This document shows positions 57,147-58,503 of a stretch of 64,000 bases of DNA, one piece after another; the stretch's first letter is position 1, and each line of letters opens with the position of its first letter. The notes beneath the pieces were generated by a model. The model worked only from the letters and a program-made list of their open reading frames with translations, searched no databases and was not told the origin of the DNA. The stretch spans positions 372,001-436,000 of the forward strand of contig NZ_QJOW01000002.1 of NCBI RefSeq assembly GCF_009184545.1. The letters run 5' to 3'. This stretch comes from Halosegnis rubeus. Its GTDB lineage: Archaea > Halobacteriota > Halobacteria > Halobacteriales > Haloarculaceae. A program made the translations under genes and the position numbers.

Positions 57147-57514
57147 TGGTCGAAGACCGCACCACGGACGGCACCCGCATCGCCGAACTGCTCTCCTCGG
57201 AGATTCACGGTCGGGAATCGGGGGCGCTCGGTTCGCTTTCCGTTACGGACGCCGACCGCGAGGTCGACCCGCGCGAGGACAGCGCGTACGTGTTCACGGT
57301 CTCGCGGGACGACGGGTCGGTCGCGACGGTCCACGTCCACCCGGACCGTATCCACCTCGAAGTCGCCACGACACCCGACCGCGTGGCCGAACTGGCCGGT
57401 GACCTCGGTCTGCGTGCCCGGCCGAAGGCCGTCGACCCGCCCCAGACGCTCGTCTTCATCGAGGACGGCGCAGAAGTCAAACGCGCGACCGACCTGCTCG
57501 CCGCGCTCGCGTAA
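57146..57514 (+). CDS. Conserved hypothetical protein, 122 aa
   Basis: Alpha/beta pattern without cysteines or membrane segments (AELLSSEIHGRESG, DDGSVATVHVHPDRIHLEVA partly). It is co-translated with the DUF2240 gene. No family assigned. The IS608-like element begins 16 bases after its stop. Confidence 0.7.
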   Translation: MVEDRTTDGTRIAELLSSEIHGRESGALGSLSVTDADREVDPREDSAYVFTVSRDDGSVATVHVHPDRIHLEVATTPDRVAELAGDLGLRARPKAVDPPQTLVFIEDGAEVKRATDLLAALA

Positions 57515-57540
57515 CGCCAACGGATTTACGCAAGTACGAG

Positions 57541-57567
57541 GAGAAAGCCCCGTGGTTTAGCGCGGGG
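57541..57567 (+). repeat. Left-end hairpin of the IS608-like element
   Basis: Seven-pair stem CCCCGTG/CGCGGGG (one G-T pair) with loop GTTTAG, preceded by GAGAAAG. Confidence 0.8.
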
Positions 57568-57867
57568 ATGAATCCGACACCTCTCCCACAAACCACGTCC
57601 GACGTGCTGAACGGATGTGTTAAGCAAGTAGTCACCGTACTACCAGTCAACCGAGGCGGCCGGCCCGCCCTGCTAATCGGACAGTATCGGGATTCTCCGA
57701 TTCCACGCAAAAGCATCCCGTTCTGTTGTGGATTTCGGGATGCAGGCAGTAAACGTATCTCTAAATCCCATGCCGTCATAGGAGTACCGGCTGGTTGGCA
57801 CAGCCAGTAGTTGTCTTTTGAGGCGACTACAAACCGTAAACATCCCAACCCAGCGGTGCGGTGCCGT

Positions 57868-57903
57868 GGGAATCCTCGTGCTTCAGCGCGGGGAGGATGT
57901 CAA
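57868..57903 (+). repeat. Right-end hairpin of the IS608-like element
   Basis: Seven-pair stem CCTCGTG/CGCGGGG with loop CTTCAG, preceded by GGGAAT and followed by AGGATGTCAA. Its stem is nearly the same as that of the left end. Confidence 0.82.
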
Positions 57904-57927
57904 GCGTGGTTCCTGTACGGATACGGT

Positions 57928-58503
57928 ATGCTGTCACAAGCTACGCCCGAGTCGGCTGCCGACTCCGCCACGCGGACGGCCTTCGTCGAGTTTCTCGACG
58001 GACTGGTCGGCGCGATTCCTCACATCCTCTCGGGTCTCGTCTTCCTCGTCGGCTCGTATCTCGTTATCAAACCCGCGTTGACCGTCACCCGATTCGTCCT
58101 CAGTCGGCTGTTGCCCGCCGAGCAGAAACTCATCGTTGACCTCTCGGTCGCGGTCGTCGGCCTGTTTCTGTGGTTCGGGGCCGCACTCGCCCTGCTCAAA
58201 ATCGTCGGCTTGGGCGATATCGCGGCCAGTCTCGGCACCGCGGCGGGGTTCATCGGCTTGGGGGTCGCCTTCGCGCTCAAGGAGATGATCGCCGACACGG
58301 TCGCGGGCGTGTATCTGCTTCGTGACTCGGATTTCAACCACGGCGATGCCGTCACCACCGCCTCCGTCACCGGCACCATCGTCGATATCGACCTGCGGAA
58401 GACGCGGATTCGGGCCGACAACGGCGACCTCGTCGTCGTCGCGAACCGCGACGTGGAAAAGAAGTGGACGAACCAGACCGCCTCGACGAAGCCGGCCGAG
58501 TGA
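57928..58503 (+). CDS. MscS-like small mechanosensitive channel protein, 191 aa
   Basis: Three hydrophobic segments (about residues 33-55, 68-92 and 98-118), then an MscS-type beta domain (GDAVTTASVTGTIVDIDLRKTRI partly, ADNGDLVVVANRDVEKKWT). It lacks the large C-terminal vestibule of MscS, so it is a short form. The ATG at 57928 lies 25 bases after the end of the IS608-like element; the usual TATA box may now be on the far side of that element. Confidence 0.8.
   Translation: MLSQATPESAADSATRTAFVEFLDGLVGAIPHILSGLVFLVGSYLVIKPALTVTRFVLSRLLPAEQKLIVDLSVAVVGLFLWFGAALALLKIVGLGDIAASLGTAAGFIGLGVAFALKEMIADTVAGVYLLRDSDFNHGDAVTTASVTGTIVDIDLRKTRIRADNGDLVVVANRDVEKKWTNQTASTKPAE

Follow-up and report, generated by a model that had tools for sequence, protein, structure and literature searches.

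A 374-bp transposase-free element of Halosegnis rubeus with a TnpB omegaRNA scaffold and a predicted pseudoknotted 5' RNA domain

A 374-bp sequence in the window (the whole 64,000-nucleotide stretch of Halosegnis rubeus DNA that we analysed) is a mobile, transposase-free element of the IS200/IS605 type (PATE). Its interior matches the omegaRNA scaffold of TnpB, preceded by a structured 5' RNA domain and a promoter-like box (Table 1). We put at roughly two in three the probability that this non-autonomous PATE is moved by TnpA in trans and supplies its own omegaRNA to TnpB in trans.

Table 1. Features of the element and of its flanks, in window coordinates.
Feature	Position	Strand	Basis or remark
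TTAC target tetranucleotide	57526..57529	+	left cleavage site, outside the element; in 34/34 aligned full-length copies
Complete PATE, 374 bp, no protein gene	57530..57903	+	empty site in congener; copies in own genome and in other haloarchaea
Left guide AAAG (IS608-type)	57544..57547	+	AGGAGAAAG kept in nearly all copies
Left-end hairpin, CCCCGTGG-TTTA-GCGCGGGG	57548..57567	+	paired in 34-copy alignment
TATA-like box TGTTAA (consensus TTTTAA)	57618..57623	+	predicted archaeal promoter of the RNA
5' RNA domain, ~97 nt, predicted pseudoknotted	57649..57745	+	paired changes, cross-family complementarity, model R1
TnpB omegaRNA (sot/reRNA) scaffold	57753..57894	+	Rfam RF02656 sot0042, 58.2 bits, E=2.6e-14
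Right guide GAAT (IS608-type)	57870..57873	+	kept in nearly all copies
Right-end hairpin, CCTCGTGC-TTCA-GCGCGGGG	57874..57893	+	doubles as last omegaRNA stem
TCAA right cleavage site	57900..57903	+	terminates 34/34 aligned full-length copies
Predicted 16-nt omegaRNA guide GCGTGGTTCCTGTACG	57904..57919	+	analogy with ISDra2 TnpB (PMC8612924)

Element ends, empty site and copies

IS608, of the IS200/IS605 family with a Y1 TnpA, has the cleavage sites TTAC and TCAA, the guides AAAG and GAAT, and subterminal hairpins; the present element shares all of these end signals and differs in carrying neither a tnpA nor a tnpB gene. The original prediction had recognised a MITE- or PATE-like mobile element by these signals, and a sequence check of the window found the four motifs exactly where they had first been named, with a linker of 14 nt between the element start and the left AAAG. 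The element has as neighbours a small gene that ends at 57514, itself preceded by a DUF2240 gene, and a gene with a mechanosensitive-channel domain that starts at 57928; at its length the element is too short for a transposase gene. An 80-aa frame of the window copy was rejected as coding, the frame being unconserved among copies: read from the homologous ATG it measures 7-80 aa or is absent, depending on the copy, and no conserved ORF was found across the aligned copies.

In a congener (G004) the flanks are joined, with 90% identity across ~1030 bp covering both sides, and the junction reads CGGATTTAC directly followed by GCGTGGTCCCTGTACGG. This is an exact empty site, TTTAC being joined to the bases after TCAA, the kind of site for which the original prediction had proposed to look; TTAC is still present there, as a single copy and with no duplication in this one empty site examined. 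The element thus shows subterminal hairpins at both ends, no terminal inverted repeats and no target duplication, as PATEs do. Further copies, a search for which had likewise been proposed, occur in the host's own haloarchaeal assembly (2.66 Mb, 12 contigs) and in other haloarchaea. A second full copy in the own genome (C6:239379-239744, 82% identity) follows GATTAC and ends in TCAA, another (C9:96424-96773, 91% identity) lacks the right end, and the right half of the element is found at C9:89222-89403. The copy without a right end breaks off inside the right-end hairpin, and an amidohydrolase-like reading frame enters the broken end.

We aligned 34 distinct full-length copies from haloarchaeal genomes (365-377 bp; identity of the other copies to the window copy 76-86%), all of which start after TTAC and end in TCAA in unrelated flanks, the IS608-type substrate signals being conserved in position. 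Most loci in the genome contigs show the same picture, the remainder being truncated, diverged or at contig ends. The hairpins covary: in the left-end hairpin 97.1% of cells are paired over the 34 copies, with changes on both sides in 5/8 pairs (one pair is G-C in 23, C-G in 8 and A-U in 2 copies), and in the right-end hairpin 93% are paired, with both-side changes in 3/8 pairs (one is U-A in 17 and C-G in 15). Copies in Halorubrum yunnanense are 98.7-99.5% identical and lie at different sites, which indicates recent transposition there. Full-length copies are also present in further genomes of the same order and on plasmids, among them Halobacterium salinarum NRC-1 plasmid pNRC200, where a full copy lies at 267914-268286 (+ strand). 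A search of phage records for the element gave no match and the core motif was not found in viral contigs, leaving virus-borne spread unsupported.

OmegaRNA scaffold, promoter-like box and 5' RNA domain

The original prediction had described the transposition ends only; it was right about them and overlooked the omegaRNA scaffold, the promoter-like box and the structured RNA domain between them. The sot0042 match spans the full model (positions 1-174), at a score below the RF02656 gathering score of 88; the own-genome matches above this cut-off reach 98-144 bits, and the other full PATE copy in the genome scores 77 bits. The window copy has a few broken pairs in the proposed structure, and the omegaRNA helices are kept in the 34 copies. 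The scaffold match stops at 57894, just ahead of the terminal TCAA, which places the 3' end of the omegaRNA at the right end of the transposon. As the scaffold ends in the right-end hairpin, the guide would be the 16 nt beyond TCAA, with TTAC as the TAM. The predicted guide equals the DNA to the right of TTAC in the empty site, where G004 matches it at 15/16 bases. In ISDra2 the TAM and the target site coincide, and TnpB cleaves the donor joint where target site and guide sequence adjoin (PMC8612924); by this rule the PATE RNA would target the element-less site, and by the same analogy TTAC is the likely TAM of the partner TnpB. No overlap of the omegaRNA with a tnpB 3' end was found: the element has no tnpB, and another RNA domain stands in its place.

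All 34 copies have the TATA-like box, at a distance of 32 nt (31 nt in two copies) upstream of the CCGAGG with which the 5' domain begins and within a stretch that is otherwise variable. Its placement is as expected for an archaeal TATA box, with a predicted start site just before the domain. The domain itself comprises a GGCGG hairpin, a central hairpin with a putative H-type pseudoknot, and a segment complementary to the 5' stem of the omegaRNA; the window gave no Rfam match for it and no residual tnpB upstream of the scaffold.

Over the 34 copies, 94.5% of the cells of the whole proposed structure are paired, against 36-48% in slid controls, and 96 double-change cells compare with 33.6 after shuffling (0/500); for the 5' domain alone, 92.3% of cells are paired and the double-change cells number 42 against 16.5 (0/500). 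Under a tree-based null, an unbiased scan found no pair that clearly passes (best E ~0.07 with 34 sequences, 0.3 with 45), and the top-ranked pairs all lie within the proposed helices. Across divergent families, the main hairpin's loop varies in step with the downstream segment that it pairs with (permutation p=0.0002), e.g., CACCCC/GGGGTG, GGAATCC/GGATTCC and GGTATCC/GGATACC, among others. The GGGAUUC-type segment and the first omegaRNA stem covary less strongly than the pseudoknot, with p=0.0002 when only near-duplicates were removed and 0.005 and 0.02 under stricter thinning. The pseudoknot is absent from the nested minimum free energy fold of the window RNA alone (z=-2.9), and the evidence for the structure is therefore comparative. 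Two alternative topologies are suggested: the close family fits a local hairpin at columns 163-178 plus pairing of CCGA with columns 154-157, whereas other families point to columns 164-167 as the partner of CCGA and to the omegaRNA as that of the GGGAUUC segment. Taken from the pattern of changes, the core appears to be under selection at the RNA level, with no ORF.

Distribution of the 5' domain and candidate partner proteins

A covariance model (R1) built from the 5' domain and used for genome searches matched in 18/117 genomes of the order, and in a phylum-wide sample positives came only from that same haloarchaeal order. Most of the distant members examined lie in protein-free stretches, between a left-end-like hairpin on the upstream side and an omegaRNA with a right end on the downstream side. 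Several differ in their end signals (TCAC) and in their omegaRNA hairpins, and there are interrupted or decayed loci among them. Among 62 domain loci, a TnpB frame lies nearby in three, and in none (0/62) does it stand upstream of the RNA as in TnpB elements. Several distinct PATE families with TCAC or TCAA ends share the 5' RNA domain (loci L257-L268, L272-L276 and L279-L300) and differ in their omegaRNA hairpins. One genome (G043) has 11 matches to the domain. At two loci (L263 and L200) the domain adjoins a similar repeat-like sequence (CCCC..CTACTC..GGGGGCTTAGCGC), which at L263 lies near tnpA and tnpB genes; nested insertions are possible at both.

Mobilisation in trans, as originally predicted, is also our reading, with the qualification that the own genome yielded no TnpA whose ends match on both sides. 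Two TnpA elements there were examined as helpers: one (L154) reads TTCAC on the right side, so that its ends mismatch, and the other (L010) ends in TCAA on the right, with no TTAC seen on the left. The window copy may therefore be immobile now. As for genes with the same ends, for which the original prediction had suggested searching, the genome holds both tnpA and tnpB, and a TnpB element matches whereas neither tnpA does so at both ends.

TnpA elements ending in TTAC and TCAA were found in other haloarchaea only, so that the IS605-type elements that could supply TnpA, as expected for a PATE, are those of other genomes. The IS605 elements L242-L248 and L250 begin, directly after TTAC, with a stretch leading to GCGAAAGCC and a hairpin and finish with GAATCC, a hairpin and GAGGATGTCAA; the elements of the 126-aa TnpA type, to which these belong, start after TTAC with a stretch leading to AGGCGAAAGCC and a hairpin and end in the same way (GAATCC, hairpin, GAGGATGTCAA). 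Several of the PATE genomes (G122, G154, G187 and G202) have this 126-aa type. The group L242-L250 comprises widespread IS605 elements with a 126-aa TnpA, a TnpB of ~430 aa and the same end signals as those of the PATE, and their 34-nt right end is identical in nine genomes.

In the own genome about 14 of the tnpB matches are substantial, and there are fragments besides. One TnpB element (C6:299881-301353) combines TTAC and TCAA ends with a sot0042 omegaRNA and an intact TnpB of 424 aa, in which RuvC-I reads DLG, the third aspartate is present, and an alternative RuvC-II glutamate stands six residues before the first zinc-finger cysteine, at a position defined in PMC10711439. Inactivity of this TnpB, considered on account of Gly for Glu in RuvC-II, became less likely with the alternative position, and to judge by these residues the protein may well be an active nuclease. 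The clade of this gene (C6:300020-301291, L147) and its orthologues (L301-L306, L312) is a haloarchaeal IS1341-type TnpB in which Gly replaces the canonical RuvC-II glutamate, an alternative glutamate is placed as in Fanzor proteins (ExxxxxxCxxC) and RuvC-I has DLG, not DPG.

Orthologues of this TnpB (cut-off E<=1e-200) occur in 18/23 PATE genomes against 68/369 others (odds ratio 16, p=4e-9, uncorrected for relatedness), and the assemblies of 5/23 PATE genomes contain no full-length orthologue. A further region of the own genome (C9:39256-40474, L148) has a TTAC-flanked left end with an omegaRNA within ~60 bp and a second omegaRNA and right end ~1 kb further, as in composite or interrupted elements. 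Two contigs each terminate within a tnpB, in a partial frame 165 aa long (C7:141-338 and C10:112012-112209); the assembly is thus probably broken at tnpB repeats, and elements may be missing from it.

Proposed mechanism, alternatives and relation to known elements

We propose that a Y1 TnpA acting in trans would cut at TTAC and TCAA on single-stranded DNA, the enzyme being deduced from the ends, and that the element is then moved to new TTAC sites, a mobility that the empty site and the copies demonstrate. The element's own promoter, to judge by sequence conservation, would drive an RNA some 255 nt long, not counting the flank, in which the pseudoknotted 5' domain is followed by a TnpB-type omegaRNA. 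This omegaRNA would continue past the right end, and any DNA lying beyond TCAA would thus serve as the guide. A TnpB encoded at another locus would bind this RNA and cut TTAC plus guide, i.e., the element-less site; the likeliest candidate is the type at C6:299881-301353, which shares the ends and the omegaRNA type. Repair from the element-bearing copy would restore the element, and a gene-free element would thereby gain the homing and retention benefit of TnpB. Haloarchaea are often polyploid, which would make homing between chromosome copies effective. The 5' domain occupies the place that the tnpB coding sequence has in TnpB elements; it may serve to initiate, protect or regulate the RNA, for which pairing to the omegaRNA's first stem is one possible means. 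TnpA action in trans, transcription, TnpB loading and homing are all proposed here from sequence features.

If the PATE RNA were instead a decoy or regulator that loads or blocks TnpB, or acts on tnpA/tnpB mRNA, with no guided cleavage of its own, element-less sites would be spared. Complementarity of the 5' domain to one arm of the omegaRNA's first stem allows a pairing that could switch the scaffold off, and in Halobacterium salinarum TnpB proteins are low or undetected while omegaRNAs are expressed, a decoy role having been suggested for circular omegaRNA forms in that species (PMC12558985). The right end, TCAA and the guide position are strictly kept, which might seem to argue for guided cleavage, but TnpA needs them too and their conservation does not discriminate; on balance we regard a decoy as unlikely. 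We consider it improbable that the omegaRNA is a relic, the PATE being a deletion derivative of a TnpB element that is still moved by TnpA in trans around a core now without function: haloarchaeal PATEs are reported to arise from IS605-type elements by core deletion (PMC3119063), and the own genome also holds decayed copies, but a relic would be expected to lose its helices and keep the ends only, whereas here no residual tnpB is left and the structured domain and TATA-like box are kept across about six families with paired changes. Ordinary intergenic sequence with IS608-like motifs by chance, tetranucleotides and short hairpins being common individually, is already refuted by the empty site, the repeated copies and the identical boundaries.

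The closest known elements are the PATEs of Haloquadratum walsbyi described in 2011 (e.g., HqIRS46, 390 bp; PMC3119063), which are likewise non-coding, of similar length, with near-terminal palindromes, an IS605-type target oligonucleotide and strain-specific insertions. The description predates TnpB guide RNAs, and its available part gives no RNA structure, promoter or guide role (PMC3119063). A PATE of the virus HRTV-DL1, also found in its host Halorubrum lacusprofundi, is transcribed, with a strongly expressed end interpreted as ncRNA; it differs in its length of 489 bp, and in the accessible portion of the report the transcript is not linked to TnpB guides (PMC10544981). That paper also states, citing Gomes-Filho 2015, that a Halobacterium salinarum PATE is active as ncRNA (PMC10544981). 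We rejected the HRTV-DL1 PATE as a member of the present family, its region having no sot0042 match. In the first 8000 nt of our HRTV-DL1 record (L211:1-8000) we saw a weak HgcC match only (E=0.018), on the strand opposite to the reported main transcription.

Haloarchaeal sense overlapping transcripts were reportedly described by Gomes-Filho in 2015. These omegaRNAs (RF02656 sot0042; PMC12558985, which cites that work) share the scaffold and the right-end hairpin with the present element and overlap the 3' end of tnpB, whereas the PATE lacks tnpB and has a different structured domain on the 5' side of the scaffold. PATEs (PMC3119063), haloarchaeal omegaRNAs (PMC12558985) and a transcribed PATE (PMC10544981) are thus known separately. 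In the literature searched, which covers TnpB homing and sotRNAs in part, we found no paper that joins a PATE, a promoter-driven TnpB guide and a separate conserved 5' domain. Mobile elements that carry a guide RNA and no nuclease also include protein-less HEARO/IscB omegaRNA elements, and trans omegaRNAs are known. HEARO/IscB elements differ in using IscB, not TnpB, and in being bacterial, and they are not known to have such a 5' domain.

Returning to the trans-acting omegaRNA that we favour, we suggest, more tentatively and as somewhat less than an even chance, that the element represents a gene-free haloarchaeal class whose payload is a dedicated, independently promoted TnpB guide RNA with a new pseudoknotted 5' domain, possibly gating the scaffold, and which exploits the TnpB of other elements for homing in polyploid hosts. 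PATEs have so far been seen chiefly as passive parasites of TnpA. Should they carry TnpB guides of their own, non-autonomous elements would join RNA-guided homing, which would help to explain the persistence of gene-free copies, and haloarchaeal TnpBs would work in trans at many loci. The 5' domain would then be an independent answer to the problem of making an omegaRNA without a tnpB mRNA, and the interest of the element would lie as much in RNA-guided TnpB function as in TnpA.
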